This document shows positions 203-9,406 of a stretch of DNA of 46,420 bases, piece after piece. Positions within the stretch are counted from its first letter, which is position 1. Each line of letters opens with the position of its first letter. Under the pieces are notes generated by a model. That model saw only the letters and a list, made by a program, of their open reading frames with translations. It searched no databases and was not told where the DNA came from. Source of the DNA: Dehalococcoidales bacterium (GTDB lineage: Bacteria > Chloroflexota > Dehalococcoidia > Dehalococcoidales > UBA5627); NCBI GenBank assembly GCA_028707255.1, contig JAQTUQ010000011.1:1-46420 (forward strand). Reading direction: 5' to 3'. The position numbers were made by a program, and so were the translations under genes.

Positions 203-541
203 TTAAAAGCCTTTTCCGGTGTCTGGCGTTGCGCCATGAGTCCAGTGTACATCAGGTAAAGGTAAATCCATTACGCTTATCAATATTATACACACGCATA
301 ATATAATACCGGCTATTCCAAAAAGACGCTTTTTGCCCTTAATTGCACCCATAAAGCTAAGAATCAGACCAAGTGAGGCAAAGAGAATATTTATCCAGTT
401 GAGCCAGCCAAATATCGGGAAATAGAAAGACCAGTAACCGACCGTATTCATGCCCAGTACGCTAACCAGATACATAGTTAGATAATATGTCAGTATTCCA
501 AGCCCCGTAGCCGTGCCTATCATAAATCCCGAAATGCTCAT
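203..541 (-). CDS. Small three-helix membrane protein of the molybdoenzyme operon
   Basis: 112 residues starting MSISGFMIG. I chose this ATG because AGGAAG lies five bases upstream; an in-frame ATG at 586 would add 15 residues (MYASKNAFPRKVRKQ) but lies inside an inverted repeat and lacks a good ribosome site. Three hydrophobic helices are visible, about residues 4-31, 37-66 and 70-92, with a short tail containing the only histidines (HWTH). There is no heme-ligand pair inside the helices, so it is not a cytochrome b anchor of the usual type. It lies between two other membrane-protein genes on the same strand. I do not recognise the family; a structural partner or anchor of the exported enzyme upstream is the simplest guess. 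Confidence 0.7.
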   Translation of the reverse strand: MSISGFMIGTATGLGILTYYLTMYLVSVLGMNTVGYWSFYFPIFGWLNWINILFASLGLILSFMGAIKGKKRLFGIAGIILCVCIILISVMDLPLPDVHWTHGATPDTGKGF

Positions 542-585
542 TTGCTTCCTAACTTTCCTCGGAAATGCATTTTTAGACGCATACA

Positions 586-624
586 TAGGCTACCCAGAGG
601 AATTGCTTCCAATAAAGTAGCCTA
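586..624 (-). promoter_or_regulatory. Intercistronic inverted repeat (8-bp arms)
   Basis: TAGGCTAC at 586-593 and its perfect complement GTAGCCTA at 617-624 would form a stem in the transcript between the two membrane-protein genes. No U-run follows on the minus strand, so this is not a typical terminator. It would more likely affect mRNA processing or stability. The repeat covers the alternative ATG at 586. Confidence 0.45.
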
Positions 625-658: not shown

Positions 659-1234
659 TTATTTACTTTTACCGACAATGAACTGCCGCAGTATAGACAG
701 GACTAACAGCACGGCGCCGGTTGCGATAAGGAGATAATAACCTGTTAATAAAGATGTATCCACATCGCTCTGGTACGGATCACCCATATCTACGGTAATG
801 GTGCCGTTTAAAGGCGCGTCATAAAAGTTTACCAGATTCATCTGTATAACCATGATGCCGATAACACAAACACCGATTACAGAAAGGCCGACACCGGCAA
901 TAAGCAGCGTCGGCAGCGATATTCTGAGCTTGCCAAGGCTAATCCCCTTTTCACTTTTTGCAAAAAGGCTGAAGGCAAGAACCAGCATACATATCACCAG
1001 ATATACCCACATGAACGGGGTAAACCACGCCGGCATAGTTGAGTCATAACCCGATATCCAGATTTTATACTCATCAGGAATAAACGATTCAAGACCATAA
1101 GCATAGATGTTTATGGCAGTAACTTTAAGTTCTACAACATAAGCCGTCCACCATGGTTGAAACCATGAATAAAGGAAGAACGCCGCAGCCGCCAGAACTA
1201 AAGCCCGAAATATCCAGGGTCTAGCTTTACTCAT
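659..1234 (-). CDS. Four-helix membrane protein of the molybdoenzyme operon
   Basis: 191 residues with four clear hydrophobic helices, roughly residues 9-31, 69-92, 106-131 and 163-186. Two longer polar loops, about 32-68 (rich in Tyr, Trp and Asp) and 132-162 (VDMGDPYQSDVD), lie on the same side of the membrane. The positive-inside rule (MSKAR at the N-terminus, KSEKGISLGK between helices 2 and 3) puts these loops outside, where the exported enzyme would be. The protein has no histidine at all, so it cannot be a b-heme quinol anchor, and it has no NrfD or DmsC features I can see. GGAGAAAAG precedes the ATG. It lies 124 bases after the ferredoxin subunit, across two hairpins. Family not recognised. 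Confidence 0.75.
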   Translation of the reverse strand: MSKARPWIFRALVLAAAAFFLYSWFQPWWTAYVVELKVTAINIYAYGLESFIPDEYKIWISGYDSTMPAWFTPFMWVYLVICMLVLAFSLFAKSEKGISLGKLRISLPTLLIAGVGLSVIGVCVIGIMVIQMNLVNFYDAPLNGTITVDMGDPYQSDVDTSLLTGYYLLIATGAVLLVLSILRQFIVGKSK

Positions 1235-1358: not shown

Positions 1359-2165
1359 TTAGGATAGCGCCAGGTCTCCCACGTTGACATCTTCCTCTGT
1401 ACTGATATTGTCTTTAGTCAGAGATTTGCCATCTTTCTCAATTTTTAGTGAGAAAGCGCCTACTGCCAATCCTTCGAACCAGAAGTCGCCGAATTCATCT
1501 GTGGTAGCAGTACCGCTTCCGGCTCCGGAAAGGGTACAGGTAGCGCCTATTACCACCTCATTTGAAGACGGGTCATATACCGTACCTGCAATAAATCTCT
1601 TGGGCAGGTTAAGATAGTAAGCCCTCGGATTAGTGCCTTCTTCCGGTTTTAACACCTCAGCCTGACTTATCTCGGAGCTAAAAGCCGATTCCTCGCCGAA
1701 CATCAGGGCTGACATGGCACAGGCATCGACACATCTGGGTTCATCTATAGGACCGCCCCTGTCGAGAAGATGAGCACATCCGGTACACTTCTGAGCCAGC
1801 TTCAAATCTTCATTGAAGTAGATCGACTCATAAGGGCAAGCGTCTAAACATAACTTGCAGCCGCTGCATTTTGCCGGTTCTATCCACACCAGCCCGTCAT
1901 TTCTCTTGGATATGGCGGTGTCGGGACAGGCTTCGATACACGGAGCATCATCGCAGTGATTGCACCGCGTAAGAACATATGCTACCTTGACTTTGGGAAC
2001 CTGACCGCGAACATGTTCATTCAGCTTGCACCAGAACTGCCCCCAAACCGGTTGCGGTTTGGCATAGGGAGACCAGTCGTTACCGCAATGCTCGTCCTTG
2101 CAGGCTACCTGACAGTTGTAACATCCGCCGCACTCTGCAACATCATTAATAAATACTTTAGCCAT
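1359..2165 (-). CDS. Ferredoxin (electron-transfer) subunit of the molybdoenzyme, with C-terminal Ig/Cna-like domain
   Basis: 268 residues. It has the DmsB/PsrB pattern of four [4Fe-4S] motifs: C12-C15-C18-C22, C68-C71-C76-C80, C100-C103-C106-C110 and C127-C130-C145-C149, sixteen cysteines in all. After residue about 185 there is a beta-rich domain of the carboxypeptidase-regulatory or Cna-B kind (TDEFGDFWFEGL, FSLKIEKDG). This layout, ferredoxin plus a small beta-barrel tail after KPEEGTNPRAYYLNL, matches my memory of the small subunit of Pelobacter pyrogallol-phloroglucinol transhydroxylase and is rare elsewhere. No signal peptide is visible; it would be carried across the membrane with the Tat-bearing large subunit. 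Its ATG overlaps the large subunit's stop as TAATG, so translation is coupled. It should pass electrons between the molybdenum site and a membrane partner. Confidence 0.85.
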   Translation of the reverse strand: MAKVFINDVAECGGCYNCQVACKDEHCGNDWSPYAKPQPVWGQFWCKLNEHVRGQVPKVKVAYVLTRCNHCDDAPCIEACPDTAISKRNDGLVWIEPAKCSGCKLCLDACPYESIYFNEDLKLAQKCTGCAHLLDRGGPIDEPRCVDACAMSALMFGEESAFSSEISQAEVLKPEEGTNPRAYYLNLPKRFIAGTVYDPSSNEVVIGATCTLSGAGSGTATTDEFGDFWFEGLAVGAFSLKIEKDGKSLTKDNISTEEDVNVGDLALS

Positions 2166-5056
2166 TAATTGCCTCCTTCTACCCAGCCCTCAAAGATCGG
2201 GCCGTACTTCGGATCATATTTTCTCTCAAAGGCTTCGGGATACATCTCTTTCCACTCCATATACTCTTCGCCGCTGACCTTGGCAACTTCAATCAAGAAA
2301 CCGATTGGTTGGATACCGTAACAACGATAAGACATTACCCAATCCGGGCTGATACAGTTGCCGTTACCGCCCCTGTTAATGGAGGCAATGTCAATGAAGT
2401 CACCGCCGCCGGCTTTTTCCAGGTAGATATCGCCGGCAATTGCCCTTTCGCAAACTTCAGCAATAGCCAGAACAATACCCTTGTCGTTGTAGAGTTTAAT
2501 CAAATCACCGGTTTTGATGCCTCTGGCTTCTGCATCGACGGGGTTAATCCAGCATTCCGAATAGGCGTAACCATCGAAACCTATTTTATATTTAATTTCC
2601 CTGGTCCAGGGGATATCGCTATGCTGAGAATGCCTGCCCCATCTGCGGGTGCTGACATTAAGAGTCAAGGGATAATCCTGTGCTCTTGCGCTGAGCAGCC
2701 TGTCTTCATCATGCGTCCATCCCTCTGATGCCGGGCCTCCGCGTATAAATTTGGCTGTCGGCTGCCTTTCCTTATCATCGGGATGATTTTCAAGTAACAG
2801 CTGGGATTCATATTCCAGAAGCCCGGACGGCGTACGAAGCGGGTTTTTGCCGGGGTCATCGTAGAAACCTCTGCTCGCTGCCGGAGCCTCCTTCCAGTCG
2901 GTTTTCCTGGATTGGCTCCAGACCAGTTTTTCGTTTAAGTCTTCCCAGCTGATGGAATCAGCAAGATTAGCCGCATCGTAGGAAGCCTTGATACGCGCCG
3001 CAGGGGTATCATCGGCACCGCGGTCGTTGAGTTTATCGCCGTAACCGAGTTTCTCGGCGACCGCTTTAATAGCCATATAATCGCTCCTGGCTTCGCCTCT
3101 GGTGGTCAATGATTTTTTCTGGAGCACAAGGTGCGCAGCCGTATCGCTGACGCTGAATATATCTTCCGTTTCAGTGATAACCTCTATCGGCAGAATGATA
3201 TCGCACATGCACATACCGTCTTCCATAAACATATTGGCGCCGACGATGCATTCCAGTTTGGGGCTGCGGTGCGCCGCCAGGTTCTTGAAGCCGGCGCCAC
3301 GACTGCCGGTATAAGCAAAACCGGCACCCCATATCATATGGATTTCCGATTTGCCTTCCATAGGATAGGTACGCTTGTTGAACTGGTCGCCGGTAGACCA
3401 CCACTCGACGGGCGGAGCAGTAATTGCTTTCCAGATAAGGTCTCTGGGAACGAACTGCCTGTCGGTGTCGTTGCCGCTGAGCCTGACGCCCGTTTCAGCA
3501 ACCTGCTTGTTGGTAATATCTGTGCTGGGACGCTGGGTGGTTACCGAAGTACTTTTCGGCGCCGAACCCTGGATGATGTCGTCATACATACCGATATAAC
3601 ATACACCTGGGCCTCCCCATCCCTGCATGCCCAAAAGGTAAATCCACATCCTGGTGGAACCCTCGGCATACACACCCCTGCAACAACCGGCGCCTCTGCG
3701 TCCGTTCATTATCGAGGTTGGTTTGCTCGCCCAGGCACGGGCCAAGGCTTTGATGGTATATACGGGAACGCCGGTAATCGGCGCCGCCCATTCGGGAGTC
3801 TTGGCGACGCCCTCTGCGTCGGTTCCCATAACATAGGCCTGCCATTTATCGAAACCGTAGGCATGGGTGGCAATATATTCCTTATTATAGGTATCTTCGC
3901 TAAACCAGACATAGGCGATTGCCGCCATTAAAGCAGCGTCTGTTCTTGTATGCAGGGGAATCCACTTGCTGGCATAGAGCGCACCGGTGTGAGTCAAATG
4001 GGGGTCGATGTGTAATTGCTTGATACCGATTTTGTTCCACCATTTGTGAACCATTTGCTGAGTCGTTCCGTAAGCTTGTATCCATGATTTTGTGGAATCG
4101 CAGCACCAGCCTAAAAGCATTTCACAGTTTTCGGATATATCGTGGGTTTTCGGGTTGCCTTCGTAGTCATGTCCCCAGACATATCTGCCGCCCAACTGCC
4201 CGCCGGCGGAAGTGGTAGCGGCACCGTGATGTTCGGTGATGGGTTCGCCGTATTCGGAAAGAGCCCAGTACTGCATGAAGTTGGTATGAATACCGGCACT
4301 GTTGGTTACATTTTTCGGTTCGTTATGCCCACCGGAATAAACATCGCTGATAGCTGAAGGGCCGTATTTATCGGCGACTCTCTTCAACTCGTTGGCAATG
4401 ATGGTTGCCGCTTCATCCCAGGTAATTCTCTTGTATTTGCTCTTGCCGCGGTTCTGCGCATTGATTTTTGCAGGGTCACCGCCGGGTTCCCAGTCAACCC
4501 TTTGTATGGGATAAAGAATCCTGTTGGGTGAATCCTGTCTCTTGTAATAAGTCATTACGAAACTGGATACCGGGGTTTTCATGGGAGCCTGGAAGGTCTG
4601 GCCGCGTGCCGTAATCGAGAAGGGCTCAATGCCATCGGCAAAATGCCAGGGTCTGCTCCTGACGATTTTTCCGTTTTTAACTTCGGCGGCAGTAAGCCCG
4701 CTGTGGTTATACAGCGCAATGGTTTCTTCCGGCTCAAGATAAGGAGCTGTTCCGCCACCGCCCGGTTGCGTTACCGTCTGCGTAACTGTGGCTGTAGCGC
4801 CGCTGCCACCGACTGTTGTAGTTTCGGTAACGGTGACAGCACCGCTGCCGCCTACTGTAGTCGTAACTGTAGTCGGAACCGTTTTCGTGGTAGTAACAGT
4901 TGTTGTTTCGCCGCCGCTGCAACTGGAAAGTAATCCGGCGCCTACAGCTCCGCCGACAACTACAGTACCCGCACCGATAAGAAAATCTCTCCTGGTGACT
5001 TCGCCTGTTTGTTTCTTTTCTTCATTACGTGGTTGTTTTGATTGATCCTTATTCAC
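2165..5056 (-). CDS. Tat-exported Mo/W bis-MGD oxidoreductase, transhydroxylase-like large subunit
   Basis: 963 residues, GTG start at 5056 with GGAGG six bases upstream; the overlapping ATG is followed at once by a stop. Residues 21-46 form a twin-arginine signal (TRRDFLIG) ending in LSSC46, a plausible lipobox. A low-complexity Thr/Val/Gly linker runs about 48-104. The rest is a DMSO-reductase-family body: no N-terminal Cys cluster motif, ITWDEA at 211-216, the MGD-binding segment LLGWCCDSTKSW (314-325), HIDPHLTHTGALYASKWIPLHTRTD and a C-terminal cofactor-binding barrel (NPVDAEARGIKTGD). Lack of an Fe-S cluster in this subunit and the partner's tail point to the pyrogallol transhydroxylase branch. 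At the usual metal-ligand place the sequence reads T274-E-H-H-G, without Cys, Ser or Sec. Known transhydroxylase is cytoplasmic and not a net redox enzyme, so this exported form probably does something else. Substrate unknown. Confidence 0.85.
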   Translation of the reverse strand: MNKDQSKQPRNEEKKQTGEVTRRDFLIGAGTVVVGGAVGAGLLSSCSGGETTTVTTTKTVPTTVTTTVGGSGAVTVTETTTVGGSGATATVTQTVTQPGGGGTAPYLEPEETIALYNHSGLTAAEVKNGKIVRSRPWHFADGIEPFSITARGQTFQAPMKTPVSSFVMTYYKRQDSPNRILYPIQRVDWEPGGDPAKINAQNRGKSKYKRITWDEAATIIANELKRVADKYGPSAISDVYSGGHNEPKNVTNSAGIHTNFMQYWALSEYGEPITEHHGAATTSAGGQLGGRYVWGHDYEGNPKTHDISENCEMLLGWCCDSTKSWIQAYGTTQQMVHKWWNKIGIKQLHIDPHLTHTGALYASKWIPLHTRTDAALMAAIAYVWFSEDTYNKEYIATHAYGFDKWQAYVMGTDAEGVAKTPEWAAPITGVPVYTIKALARAWASKPTSIMNGRRGAGCCRGVYAEGSTRMWIYLLGMQGWGGPGVCYIGMYDDIIQGSAPKSTSVTTQRPSTDITNKQVAETGVRLSGNDTDRQFVPRDLIWKAITAPPVEWWSTGDQFNKRTYPMEGKSEIHMIWGAGFAYTGSRGAGFKNLAAHRSPKLECIVGANMFMEDGMCMCDIILPIEVITETEDIFSVSDTAAHLVLQKKSLTTRGEARSDYMAIKAVAEKLGYGDKLNDRGADDTPAARIKASYDAANLADSISWEDLNEKLVWSQSRKTDWKEAPAASRGFYDDPGKNPLRTPSGLLEYESQLLLENHPDDKERQPTAKFIRGGPASEGWTHDEDRLLSARAQDYPLTLNVSTRRWGRHSQHSDIPWTREIKYKIGFDGYAYSECWINPVDAEARGIKTGDLIKLYNDKGIVLAIAEVCERAIAGDIYLEKAGGGDFIDIASINRGGNGNCISPDWVMSYRCYGIQPIGFLIEVAKVSGEEYMEWKEMYPEAFERKYDPKYGPIFEGWVEGGN

Positions 5057-5149: not shown

Positions 5150-5515
5150 CTAATCATGATTTCCGCCCCGAAACAACACTCCCACCCTGGCAACAAATTC
5201 ACGATGATTAACAGGTTTTCTCATACAACTGCTTGCCCCCGCCTCGAGAGCATTTATCATTTCAGGACAGCCCCTCTCCGATAGTACAATAATCGGAACA
5301 TCGGAAATATTGCGCATCTTCTCTATTACCCGCATACAATCCATGCCCGATATATTGAGACTTAATACAACCAGATGAGGGTTATTCTTTTTTAAAATAT
5401 CCAGACAGTTACAGCCCGAATCGGTGATTACATTAAAATCAGGCAAATGCTCACTGAAAATACCTTCAATACTGCACCTATCCTCGAGGTCATCTTCGAT
5501 AATCAAGACATCCAT
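5150..5515 (-). CDS. Receiver-only protein lacking the phospho-acceptor aspartate
   Basis: About 121 residues from the ATG at 5515, which follows AAGGATGGGGGA; an ATG at 5545 would add ten residues but has no ribosome site. The fold is a CheY-like receiver: acidic pair E7-D8-D9, SER in the switch position (VLSERG) and the conserved Lys in MRKP. The phospho-acceptor place reads VVLSLNISGMD with Ser52 where Asp is expected, so classical phosphorylation is not possible. There is no output domain. It is the first gene after a candidate promoter and stands between the kinase/regulator pair and the enzyme genes. It may act as a protein-protein modulator of the kinase or the OmpR regulator, or bind a small molecule, as some atypical receivers do. 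Confidence 0.8.
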   Translation of the reverse strand: MDVLIIEDDLEDRCSIEGIFSEHLPDFNVITDSGCNCLDILKKNNPHLVVLSLNISGMDCMRVIEKMRNISDVPIIVLSERGCPEMINALEAGASSCMRKPVNHREFVARVGVLFRGGNHD

Positions 5516-5606
5516 TCCCCCATCCTTATAAGTATCGATAACCAAACGCCAGTAAATAAATTAATGTATCGGGGAAATCAAGCGGTAATCTGTTAATTAG
5601 GAGGAT

Positions 5607-5885: not shown

Positions 5886-6569
5886 TTATTCCTGTAAATT
5901 AAAGGTATAGCCCATATTCGATTTGGTTTCGATGAAGTCGCTATGACCGGTAATCTCCTCTATTTTCCTGCGCAGTCTCTGTACATACACCCTGATAGCT
6001 TCTATCGAACCCGGATATTCATCTCCCCAGAGTTCCCGTGCAATACTGGAGTATGTAACCACCGTATTGGCATTCTGGATAAGTTTATAGAATATCAGGC
6101 ACTCGCTCTTTGTCAGCGTCACTTTGTTTTCATTGTAATATAAATGGTGCAACGACAGAAAAACCCTGAAATTCCCCCGCTCGTAGACGGTCAGATCGAC
6201 GGGAATATTTTTCCTGCGCACCAGTGATTTTACCCTTGCCAGAAACTCCATTTTTTTAAACGGTTTGACGATATAATCATCGGCATCCATCTCCAATCCC
6301 CTGACGATATCGTCCTCATCCCCTAAAACCGAAAGTATAATTATCGGAACATCGGAAAACATCCTTACCTGCCTCAAGACTTCAAAACCGTTTATATCAG
6401 GTAAGCCTAAATCCAGTACTACGATATCGGGGGAAAATGTTTCAACCAACTGCAAACCTTCTTCTCCCATTCCGGCTGAAGAAATATCTACATCAGGCCA
6501 ACGCATTCTCAGAGAGAGTGACAGCGATTCTACAATATTTTCATCATCTTCGATTATAAGAACTCTCAT
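5886..6569 (-). CDS. OmpR/PhoB-family response regulator
   Basis: 227 residues. The receiver domain (1-120) has the acidic pocket E7-D8-D9, phospho-acceptor D53 in VVLDLGLPD, switch S80 and K102 in VKPF. The C-terminal winged helix (about 130-227) shows LTKSECLIFYKLI, the recognition region IRVYVQRLRRKIE and the closing hairpin TKSNMGYTF. It is 26 bases downstream of the multi-PAS kinase on the same strand and is surely its partner. Its likely target is the promoter region just downstream of its own gene, where 11-bp direct repeats occur. Expected to bind DNA as a dimer after phosphorylation at D53. Confidence 0.95.
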   Translation of the reverse strand: MRVLIIEDDENIVESLSLSLRMRWPDVDISSAGMGEEGLQLVETFSPDIVVLDLGLPDINGFEVLRQVRMFSDVPIIILSVLGDEDDIVRGLEMDADDYIVKPFKKMEFLARVKSLVRRKNIPVDLTVYERGNFRVFLSLHHLYYNENKVTLTKSECLIFYKLIQNANTVVTYSSIARELWGDEYPGSIEAIRVYVQRLRRKIEEITGHSDFIETKSNMGYTFNLQE

Positions 6570-6595: not shown

Positions 6596-9406
6596 TTAAG
6601 ATTGCGACTCAACCTGTTTATGGACATGAAGCGGCAGCGAAAACATAAAAGTGGACCCTTTGTGCATCTCACTTTCAACCCGCAAATTTCCACCGTGCAA
6701 TTCGATCAGCATTTTAGATAATATCAGCCCTACTCCGAGACCGCTAAACCTCTGATTGTTCTCGGGAGAGGTTTTTCTGGGATTAAACAGGTTTTCCATT
6801 TTCTCCTTACTGATTCCGCACCCATTGTCCTTAACCGATATAAATATATTATCCTTATCGGTTGTAATCGACATCACGATTTTTCCCCCTCTGGGGGTAA
6901 ATTTCAAAGCATTATCAAAAAGATTATAGATAACCTGCAATATGCGTTCGTCATCCATCTTTACGGAAGCAATATCGATATCTTTATTGCATTCCAGAGA
7001 AATGCCCTTTTTACTTGCTATCGGGATTAATTCTTCTTTAATTCCGGCACAAAAAGCTTCAAGGTTAACCTTACGATACCTTAAATTAAGCAATCCGATT
7101 TCGCCCCTGGCAATATCCAGTAATTCATCCGCCCTCTTGGAGAGCTGCTTTACACTGCGGCTGATATTATTGGAAACATCCAGATAAGGGCTTGCCGTGG
7201 CAATTTCACAGAGGATGTCACTGGCAATTTGTAATGATGTTAAAGGTGTCTTAAGCTCGTGTACCAGTGCCCGGGTATATTCCATTTTTTTCTGTAATTG
7301 ATTTTTTAACTCTTCTTCAGCCCGTTTACGCAGCACAGCCTTCCAAACCGAATCCATCAACAAAATAAGCTGCTGGGTATCCGATTCATTATAATCGGTT
7401 TCTTTATTGGCTACCGCTATAACCGCCACAATCCTGTTCTGAAAAAAAACAGGTATGGTCAGGTATTTATGAATTTCCGCGTGTCCCACAGGATATCCCT
7501 TTTTTAAAGGATTGTTTGCTTGAAAGTCATTGACTATTATGGGTTTAGACTGTCTTACGACTTCGCCCCAGATACCTGTATTTTCCAGATGAAAAACCAT
7601 CGGCGTGTCGATTATATTACATTCTTTCATCGTTTCTTTCGACCATGTATTAAAAGTAAATTCTTTTTTATCTTCATCATAGAAGTTGATATATCCAAAT
7701 TTACTTTTTGTCAGCTTTATAGCCTCTTCCAGCGTAAAATCGAGAAGCTGCTGTATACTTTCCGATTCATATTGTACAATCTCTGCAAGGCTTTTCAGCC
7801 GTTCGGCTTCCAACCTTACAGCTTCAGTCATTTTCTTACGCTCCGTGATATCTTTGATAGTTGCCATGAAATAGCGGAATTTACCACCGGCATCTATCAT
7901 CGAATAGGGACTGACGAGAACCGGGAAACGCTCGCCGTTTTTTCTCTTGTATACCAGTTCGAAATCGGAGGATTCACCGGCTAATACCTTTTGAAAAGCG
8001 GCATTTATTGAATCGTATTCCTCTTCAGCCCAATAAGGGAATGGTCTTTTCTGACCGACCAGTTCATTATATTCGAATCCGGTCATCCGGCATAAAGCTT
8101 CATTTACATTAAGCAGTATCCCTTCACTATTGAACATGGAAAAACCATCTTTCATAACCCTGACAACTTTTTCCGAAAACTCTTTACTCTCCTGTAATTG
8201 CTTCTCCATCTTTTTTCGTTCGGTTATATCTTTCACAGTTGCCATAAAATAAGTGATCTCTCCGCGAGGTCTTTTCATATAATAGGGACTAACAATAACC
8301 GGAAAACGTTCCCCGTTTTTTCTCTTGAAAACCAATTCGAAATCATCGAATTCGCTCTTTAATGTTTTTTGAAAAGCTTCCTGGATACTTCTGTATTCCT
8401 CTTCCGGCCAATAAGGGAATGGAGCCTGTTTACCAACTAATTCATCATATGAATACCCTGTCATCAGGCAAAAAGCATCGTTAACGTCCAGTTGCACACC
8501 TTTGTCATTTACAGTAGAGAATCCATCCTTCATAGACCTGATAATATTATCCGAAAATTCCTTGCTCTCCTCTAATTGCTGTTCTATATATTTACGCAAG
8601 GTGATGTCTTTCAGCGTCGACCTGAGAGCTATGGTTTTTCCTTCCGCATTCTTTAAAGGATTAATCGAAAGCAGACAATAAATCTTATACCCGTCCTTAC
8701 TTATATGTATCACTTCTTTGTCTTGAATAATTTTGCCCTGTGTCGCCTGTTTAAAAATAAGCATCCCCTCGTCCTTCAATTCATCAGGATGCAGGTCGTA
8801 AATCTTGATTCCGGTTAACTCATCATGCGTATAACCCAAAAGTTTCCGGGCTTCCTTATTGCTATCCCGAATAAACCCGTTGAAGTCTACATATATATAT
8901 GCAATCGGAGCATCATCGAATAATTCCCTGTACTTTCTCTCCGATTCCTCAAGCTTGCGCTCCAGCATTTTATGTTCGGTAACATCATGAAAAAAACAGA
9001 ATATGAGGCCGGATTCGATATCCAAATACTGAATGCTGCCGATAACATCGATGATGATGCCTATTTTGCACTTCAGTTGCGACTCGAAATGATGAATCCC
9101 GCCAAGCTGTTTTAATTGGTCTACCATTTTCGACAGTTTTTCACAATTGTTATTTAAACCGAAGTCGTAATCGAGCACTGTTGTAGAAAGCATCTCTTCA
9201 CGGCTGTAGCCGAGCATACTGCAAAGGGATTCGTTTACATCGATTATTGCCCCGTTACTTTCAAACAGCAAAAAACCTTCTTCCGAACCCTTGACCATAG
9301 TTCTGTACCACTCGGAAGAAATTTCGTATTTATTAGCAGATTTATGTTTTTGGGCGCTATGAATCGGAGACTGAGTTATTTCTTTAGCCCGGCTGTCTTT
9401 TGACAT
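6596..9406 (-). CDS. Cytoplasmic multi-PAS/GAF sensor histidine kinase
   Basis: 936 residues with no membrane helix, so it senses inside the cell. Domains in order: PAS about 31-145, PAS 155-275, PAS 285-400, PAS 410-525, GAF 545-690, HisKA 700-770 with phospho-acceptor H716 (VHELKTP), and the ATP-binding domain 780-926 with N828/N832, D860-x-G-x-G and G889-x-G-x-G. PAS 3 and 4 are near copies of each other (MKDGFS, PFPYW, RKNGERFPV in both), a recent internal duplication. RBS GGAGG is nine bases before the ATG. Followed directly by its response regulator, then the atypical receiver and the exported molybdoenzyme, whose expression it probably controls. The ligand is unknown; PAS domains of this kind may bind heme, flavin or an aromatic compound, but no cofactor residue can be named from sequence alone. 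Confidence 0.95.
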   Translation of the reverse strand: MSKDSRAKEITQSPIHSAQKHKSANKYEISSEWYRTMVKGSEEGFLLFESNGAIIDVNESLCSMLGYSREEMLSTTVLDYDFGLNNNCEKLSKMVDQLKQLGGIHHFESQLKCKIGIIIDVIGSIQYLDIESGLIFCFFHDVTEHKMLERKLEESERKYRELFDDAPIAYIYVDFNGFIRDSNKEARKLLGYTHDELTGIKIYDLHPDELKDEGMLIFKQATQGKIIQDKEVIHISKDGYKIYCLLSINPLKNAEGKTIALRSTLKDITLRKYIEQQLEESKEFSDNIIRSMKDGFSTVNDKGVQLDVNDAFCLMTGYSYDELVGKQAPFPYWPEEEYRSIQEAFQKTLKSEFDDFELVFKRKNGERFPVIVSPYYMKRPRGEITYFMATVKDITERKKMEKQLQESKEFSEKVVRVMKDGFSMFNSEGILLNVNEALCRMTGFEYNELVGQKRPFPYWAEEEYDSINAAFQKVLAGESSDFELVYKRKNGERFPVLVSPYSMIDAGGKFRYFMATIKDITERKKMTEAVRLEAERLKSLAEIVQYESESIQQLLDFTLEEAIKLTKSKFGYINFYDEDKKEFTFNTWSKETMKECNIIDTPMVFHLENTGIWGEVVRQSKPIIVNDFQANNPLKKGYPVGHAEIHKYLTIPVFFQNRIVAVIAVANKETDYNESDTQQLILLMDSVWKAVLRKRAEEELKNQLQKKMEYTRALVHELKTPLTSLQIASDILCEIATASPYLDVSNNISRSVKQLSKRADELLDIARGEIGLLNLRYRKVNLEAFCAGIKEELIPIASKKGISLECNKDIDIASVKMDDERILQVIYNLFDNALKFTPRGGKIVMSITTDKDNIFISVKDNGCGISKEKMENLFNPRKTSPENNQRFSGLGVGLILSKMLIELHGGNLRVESEMHKGSTFMFSLPLHVHKQVESQS

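Follow-up and report, generated by a model that had tools for sequence, protein, structure and literature searches.

The window analysed here, a whole stretch of 46,420 nucleotides from a Dehalococcoidales bacterium (contig JAQTUQ010000011.1), carries the genes of a two-subunit molybdenum enzyme related to pyrogallol-phloroglucinol transhydroxylase (BthLS). Our analysis suggests that this enzyme is most likely an exported, lipid-anchored respiratory oxidoreductase that works outside the cytoplasm. This reading is supported by the family of the enzyme, its export signal, its four iron-sulphur (Fe-S) clusters, a conserved gene cassette, the occurrence of a four-transmembrane (4-TM) protein beside other exported redox enzymes and the lack of a reductive dehalogenase in its own genome. 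A sediment Dehalococcoidia bacterium would thus have turned an otherwise intracellular family of phenol-acting molybdenum enzymes into lipid-anchored outside enzymes, each with sensor genes, and this exported form of the AthL/BthL family looks like a new way of respiring organic molecules. The features of the two enzyme genes are as follows.

2165..5056, minus strand: large catalytic subunit, a molybdopterin (bis-pyranopterin guanine dinucleotide) enzyme of the AthL/BthL family, 963 amino acids, GTG start (Pfam, Protein Data Bank (PDB) match and AlphaFold2 model)
4919..5056, minus strand: predicted twin-arginine translocation (Tat) signal peptide and lipobox LSSC46, codons 1-46 (TRRDFL at 21-26, lipobox Cys46; kept in five further exported paralogues)
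4703..4918, minus strand: Thr/Gly/Val-rich linker, codons 47-118 (24 Thr, 12 Gly and 9 Val in 72 residues)
4208..4216, minus strand: Thr-Thr-Ser, codons 281-283, where BthL has Asp174-Ser175-Trp176, with Ser175 as its Mo ligand (alignment)
1359..2165, minus strand: small subunit, 268 amino acids, with four predicted [4Fe-4S] clusters on 16 Cys (counterparts of all 16 ligand Cys of DmsB in the alignment; best PDB match BthS 4v4c_B)
1362..1592, minus strand: C-terminal Cna/CarboxypepD_reg-like beta domain of the small subunit, residues 192-257 (PF13620, E 2.7e-10)

Family and export of the large subunit

Comparison with the PDB identified BthL (4v4c_A) as the top match of the large subunit (276 bits, E 3.9e-81), with no more than 171 bits to everything else; acetylene hydratase Ahy (2e7z) reached 43.6 bits. 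BthS was likewise the top match of the small subunit (E 5.2e-48). Domains found above the Pfam cut-off in the large subunit are Molybdopterin, Molydop_binding and AhtL-like_1st (PF21423); the reductive dehalogenase domains TIGR02486 and PF13486 are not among them. The AlphaFold2 model of this subunit (predicted template modelling score 0.81) matched the fold of 4v4c_A first and then those of dimethyl sulphoxide (DMSO) and trimethylamine N-oxide (TMAO) reductases, which also come second to BthL in the PDB sequence matches. BthLS is the nearest solved relative by sequence for both subunits and by fold for the large one, in agreement with the preliminary description of this locus. Two further features named there were confirmed: the mature large subunit does not begin with a Cys-rich Fe-S motif, residues 47-180 being free of Cys, and the small subunit ends in a Cna-like domain that matches the C-terminus of BthS in the alignment. 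Judged by sequence, the window enzyme is a descendant or relative of the RhL/PgtL (AthL-like) family of the MopB superfamily that is without the family's standard metal site, and from the family an aromatic substrate may be inferred.

A maximum-likelihood tree of large subunits was built with E. coli DmsA, YnfE, TorA and BisC as the outgroup. The window enzyme stands apart from the DmsA/YnfE and TorA/BisC branches, so the placement that the preliminary description had named as its refutation did not occur; the relationship to BthL is nevertheless that of a sister, since the enzyme falls in a large branch beside the BthL branch proper and not inside it, and most small subunits of that sister branch have the fourth cluster that is missing from BthS. 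A firm place in the ArrA or polysulfide/thiosulfate reductase (PsrA) families also appears excluded, by score only (33 and 72 bits, respectively, vs 276 for BthL), as neither is a row of the tree. The branch of the window enzyme (length 1.15) is the longest among the exported enzymes. A single clade for the six exported enzymes was neither rejected nor established (approximately unbiased test, p 0.055), and a cytoplasmic group from Eggerthellaceae may be nested among them.

The N-terminus of the large subunit presents, in order, TRRDFL (21-26), a hydrophobic stretch, LSSC with Cys46 and a Thr/Gly/Val-rich segment. In the AlphaFold2 model the predicted local distance difference test value is below 50 at residues 1-85 and 98-117; it is mostly low in the linker, where blocks at 81-100 reach 56-61. 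The same design of signal, lipobox and linker is common to five other exported enzymes in two genomes, and the window's own genome contains genes for TatC and signal peptidase II; the design is therefore more than chance. With twin arginine, hydrophobic stretch, lipobox Cys and export genes all present, the large subunit is a predicted Tat-exported lipoprotein, probably lipidated at Cys46 and tethered by the 72-residue linker, much as the preliminary description had proposed. The small subunit, whose gene overlaps that of the large subunit by one base, carries no export signal; by analogy with DMSO reductase, it would presumably be exported together with the large subunit.

Members of the RhL/PgtL family are listed as cytoplasmic (PMC10100899), and none of 80 homologues fetched from named genomes (Chloroflexota, Desulfobacterota, Actinomycetota, Bacillota, archaea) showed a convincing Tat signal with lipobox. 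Twin-arginine matches in five of these sequences (L058, L069, L071, L086, L087) were judged to be chance, being mostly in over-extended start regions and in no case followed by a lipobox. The window's own genome encodes four exported enzymes of the AthL/BthL type, the other three being 43-46% identical to that of the window, and at a contig end another Tat-lipoprotein begins, which has this linker as well. Two exported paralogues occur in G253, a genome of the same order and another family. Relatives at E 1e-60 or better were found in 25 of the 156 genomes of the order, with the signal region reached only in these two. Five further genomes from this genus gave no large subunit. In one of the five, G322, the 4-TM gene lies where a contig ends, so that absence of the enzyme from that genome is uncertain.

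Molybdenum site and Fe-S clusters

Among 98 family sequences, only the window enzyme is without the DSWEGW motif. All 92 non-exported members compared, and all five other exported enzymes, have an equivalent of Ser175, the molybdenum (Mo) ligand of BthL; an equivalent of Asp174 occurs in 90 of the 92, and one of His144 in all. The window enzyme has Thr281-Thr282-Ser283 in place of Asp-Ser-Trp, thus Thr at Asp174, and the Trp that follows in the motif is Gly; the resulting loop is TTSAGGQ, with unchanged flanking length. His144 is retained, and the positions aligned with Tyr404 (Thr, where the alignment is weak) and Tyr560 are not Tyr. In BthL, His144, Asp174 and Tyr404 are active-site residues with catalytic roles. 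Asp174 is replaced by Tyr, Val and Cys in three of the other exported enzymes, and its absence there indicates different substrates.

Sequencing error was rejected as the source of TTSAGG, as the frame is open and continuous and codons for DSWEGW do not occur in a neighbouring frame. The simplest reading is that Thr282, where a helix begins in the AlphaFold2 model, would be the Mo ligand; a shift by one residue in this divergent loop, with Ser283 as the ligand instead, is possible. A Thr ligand in place of Ser would add a new variant to a metal site that has been studied at length. It is highly improbable that the window copy has no Mo-site chemistry and is a decaying or regulatory paralogue: the unique loss of DSWEGW and the longest branch among the exported enzymes would fit such a loss, but the frame of 963 amino acids is open, the small subunit is intact with its 16 Cys, the cassette is intact, and a Thr hydroxyl could also bind Mo.

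The loop also bears on whether kinship with phenol enzymes is misleading and the enzyme reduces S- or N-oxides or inorganic oxyanions in the manner of DMSO reductase. TTSAGGQ is nearer to the Ser-ligand loop of DMSO reductase than to DSWEGW, an ungapped alignment would set Thr282 in register with that Ser, and DMSO and TMAO reductases are the second-best PDB and fold matches. We consider this unlikely, as the large subunit stays far short of the cut-off of every NCBIfam model for DMSO, TMAO and other reductases (TIGR02166, 248.8 vs 777.7 bits) and the tree separates the enzyme from DmsA and TorA.

Comparison of about 80 small subunits revealed two main types, one with 16 ligand Cys like E. coli DmsB and the other with 12 like BthS. 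The equivalents of DmsB Cys79, Cys99, Cys102 and Cys105, all four gone together from BthS, were mostly lost as a block or kept; the one recurrent single change is at the position of Cys102, whose equivalent alone is missing from some small subunits of the 16-Cys type. According to work on DMSO and nitrate reductases, the cluster that includes DmsB Cys102 is the membrane-proximal one. The six exported enzymes, that of the window included, all have small subunits with the full 16 ligand Cys. Retention of the fourth cluster favours electron traffic, and its loss in BthS argues for a net non-redox reaction there. Several small subunits of gut Coriobacteriia and Clostridia in the set L053, L057, L058, L066 and L082 are without the same four Cys as BthS, though their large subunits fall in the sister branch. 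This suggests that the fourth cluster may have been lost repeatedly.

A respiratory role, preferred in the preliminary description, fits these data better than transhydroxylation. The exported paralogues, the conserved cassette, the four Cys by which BthS differs and the altered active-site loop are additions to that description. That the window enzyme is a true transhydroxylase, or another net non-redox enzyme, unlike BthLS in location only, is very unlikely: BthLS is the nearest solved structure and His144 is conserved, but the fourth cluster is kept, Asp174, Ser175 and Trp176 are replaced, the Tyr404 and Tyr560 positions are not Tyr, the enzyme lies outside the BthL branch and the gene of a membrane partner is conserved beside it.

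Gene cassette and its other catalytic modules

The cassette in the window consists, in order, of genes for a PAS/GAF histidine kinase, an OmpR regulator, a receiver-only protein, the large subunit, the small subunit and the 4-TM protein. The genes around those of the enzyme are the following.

6596..9406, minus strand: PAS/GAF sensor histidine kinase with no predicted transmembrane (TM) segment (PAS, GAF, HisKA and HATPase_c matches; TM count 0)
5886..6569, minus strand: OmpR-type response regulator, phospho-acceptor Asp kept (PF00072 and PF00486)
5150..5545, minus strand: receiver-only protein, phospho-acceptor Asp replaced by Ser (PF00072)
659..1234, minus strand: 4-TM protein, candidate membrane partner (gene immediately follows that of the small subunit at C29, C33 and the two G253 loci)
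203..586, minus strand: small membrane protein in the same direction, outside the conserved cassette, role uncertain (no family match, no counterpart in other cassettes)

The same gene order was found at C29 and C33 of the window's own genome and at G253:C98, and also at C66 and G253:C153 as far as the contigs allow; the cassette is thus conserved across two genomes of different families. Cassettes beyond the window use other kinase types, e.g. beta-propeller sensors. In all six cassettes of exported enzymes the receiver-only protein has Gly or Ser at the phospho-acceptor position, where the OmpR regulators retain Asp. The 4-TM family gave no Pfam match above cut-off and has no invariant His, and a heme-bearing membrane subunit was rejected on the latter ground. 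The electron-bifurcating role also suggested in the preliminary description was not borne out, since the operon in the window contains neither a flavin subunit nor a second acceptor module. Genes for B12-binding radical SAM (S-adenosylmethionine) proteins follow the cassettes of exported enzymes in both genomes (L025:15494-17143, L026:3474-6833, L148:10086-10325).

Profile searches identified the 4-TM protein in 8 of the 156 genomes. Its gene follows an exported enzyme of the xanthine-oxidase family, beside a histidine kinase and regulator, in G298, G299 and G211 (L182:7036-14329, L183:574-7867 and L181:1-8185); this enzyme comprises a MoCoBD large subunit, a subunit that binds flavin adenine dinucleotide (FAD) and a [2Fe-2S] subunit, the last being a Tat-lipoprotein whose Thr/Val linker is of similar kind. 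The 4-TM gene comes after a gene like that of the FAD-binding subunit in G214 and lies near a reductive dehalogenase, in opposite orientation, in G244. It adjoins a lipoprotein with a flavin mononucleotide-binding domain in G322 and partly so at G253:C153. Genes for ThiF-like, acyl-carrier, ketosynthase-like and short-chain dehydrogenase proteins recur near the 4-TM gene in several relatives (L180, L181, L182 and L183; one ThiF gene was compared with Pfam).

A further Tat-lipoprotein, at C35 of the window's own genome (L027:8681-10666), has a signal peptide closely similar to those of the exported enzymes and its own kinase and regulator; its gene reads in frame through TGA GGG TCT TGT (Sec-Gly-Ser-Cys), matching the UGSC family downstream, and the product is likely to be an exported selenoprotein. 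One export and membrane scaffold would appear to be used by different catalytic modules. We tentatively regard it as possible that Dehalococcoidia possess a modular extracytoplasmic respiratory platform, in which a two-component system and a receiver that has lost its phospho-acceptor go together with the 4-TM protein and with a Tat-lipoprotein anchor on a Thr/Val linker; AthL-like molybdoenzymes, those of the xanthine-oxidase family, the UGSC selenoprotein and perhaps reductive dehalogenases would be swapped on it for the respiration of different organic substrates, the window copy having a Thr-ligated Mo.

A block of about 200 bases that spans leader and signal peptide and ends near the lipobox is common to the C29 locus and G253:C98 (L025:8440-8610 vs L148:5530-5700). 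Because DNA identity is about 99% in this block vs 44% identity in the catalytic parts behind it, in genomes from different families, exchange or recombination of the front end between loci or genomes is suggested. The leader GGAGGTGATGCCTAT (at most 2 mismatches) lies about 60 bases before the start codon of the large-subunit genes of C29, C33 and C66 and of the UGSC gene of C35; this conserved set-up has a second Shine-Dalgarno sequence at the start codon, and the leader in the window is more diverged. A coding role for the short open reading frame of the leader was dropped, as the frame is interrupted in C66 and C33. At a contig end of G253, identical 28-base repeats spaced by about 61 bases form a CRISPR-like array (L148:166-501).

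Function and comparison with known systems

The account to which we give the most weight, with somewhat less than an even chance of being right in full, is that of a terminal reductase. The folded complex of large and small subunits would leave the cell on the Tat signal of the large subunit, as DMSO reductase does, and the large subunit would be lipidated at Cys46 and held by its linker. Electrons would pass between the membrane partner, for which the 4-TM protein is the candidate, and the Mo site along the four small-subunit clusters, of which the outermost is missing from BthS. They would run outwards, and the Mo site would reduce an organic substrate, e.g. by stripping the hydroxyl from a phenolic compound. 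Switched on by its own two-component system, such a reductase would fill the role that reductive dehalogenases have in related bacteria.

Several points weigh against this account. Substrate and direction are not readable from sequence, and resorcinol hydroxylase, the characterised redox member of the family, is listed as oxidative and cytoplasmic (PMC10100899). The 4-TM protein has neither an invariant His nor a known relative among quinone enzymes, so that the electron link to the membrane is unproven. Function could have drifted in the window enzyme, given its long branch (1.15) and the missing Mo-ligand Ser of the family. An inducible catabolic enzyme could just as well have such sensor genes, and the link to dehalogenases rests on the one locus in G244.

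An exported oxidative hydroxylase, which would add a water-derived hydroxyl to a phenolic compound outside the membrane and pass electrons into the respiratory chain, is therefore also weighed and is regarded as a rather doubtful, though real, possibility. Resorcinol hydroxylase is the redox member of the family that has been described, as an electron donor in respiration (PMC10100899); a four-cluster wire runs both ways, and the window's own genome encodes a prenyltransferase of the UbiA family, a mere hint of quinones. However, products made outside would need uptake, and both the regulation and a 4-TM partner that also serves other exported redox enzymes are more suggestive of acceptor modules that can be exchanged for one another.

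Transhydroxylase-family members in sediment Chloroflexota have so far been assigned to phenol degradation or to fermentation; two studies interpret AthL-like enzymes of RBG-2, RBG-1351 and DEH-C11 as transhydroxylases that serve in phenol degradation (PMC3971608, PMC4959651). If the terminal reductase account is true, abundant subsurface bacteria could respire extracellular organic compounds, perhaps phenolics. Such extracellular respiration would follow from the multiplied, exported and individually regulated form of the enzyme in a genome without reductive dehalogenase, and a shared export-and-wiring scaffold for unrelated enzymes is suggested.

Among known systems, BthLS (also AthLS or PgtLS) of Pelobacter acidigallici (4v4c) shares with the window enzyme the fold, the lack of an N-terminal Fe-S motif, the AhtL-like first domain, the Cna-like end of the small subunit and His144; it differs in being cytoplasmic (PMC10100899), with three clusters, Asp174/Ser175/Trp176 and no cassette. 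Resorcinol hydroxylase RhLS of Azoarcus anaerobius belongs to the same RhL/PgtL family and has a redox role, but is listed as cytoplasmic with a Ser ligand (PMC10100899). The AthL-like enzymes of sediment Chloroflexota are of the same family and of the same host class or phylum, and the portions of the sources consulted describe no exported lipoprotein form or cassette for them (PMC3971608, PMC4959651).

The gut catechol dehydroxylases (Dadh, Cadh, Hcdh) are bis-molybdopterin guanine dinucleotide enzymes that act on phenols, and those of Eggerthella are Tat-exported with Fe-S and membrane subunits; they are reported to branch with acetylene hydratase, away from transhydroxylase (PMC7028382), and are set apart here by that description. 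S- and N-oxide reductases of the DmsABC type resemble the window system in the Tat signal on the catalytic subunit, the four-cluster B subunit and the membrane partner, whereas DmsA has an N-terminal cluster and a separate tree branch, DmsC is a larger membrane protein and a Cna-like domain is absent. RdhA is an unrelated cobalamin enzyme, with no lipobox or linker in the one RdhA examined, but the RdhAB loci of Dehalococcoidia also combine a Tat-exported enzyme, a small membrane partner and a two-component system of their own (PMC13390414): RdhB is a small protein with 2-3 TM helices, and in Dehalogenimonas each rdhA of assigned function adjoins a two-component system (PMC13390414).

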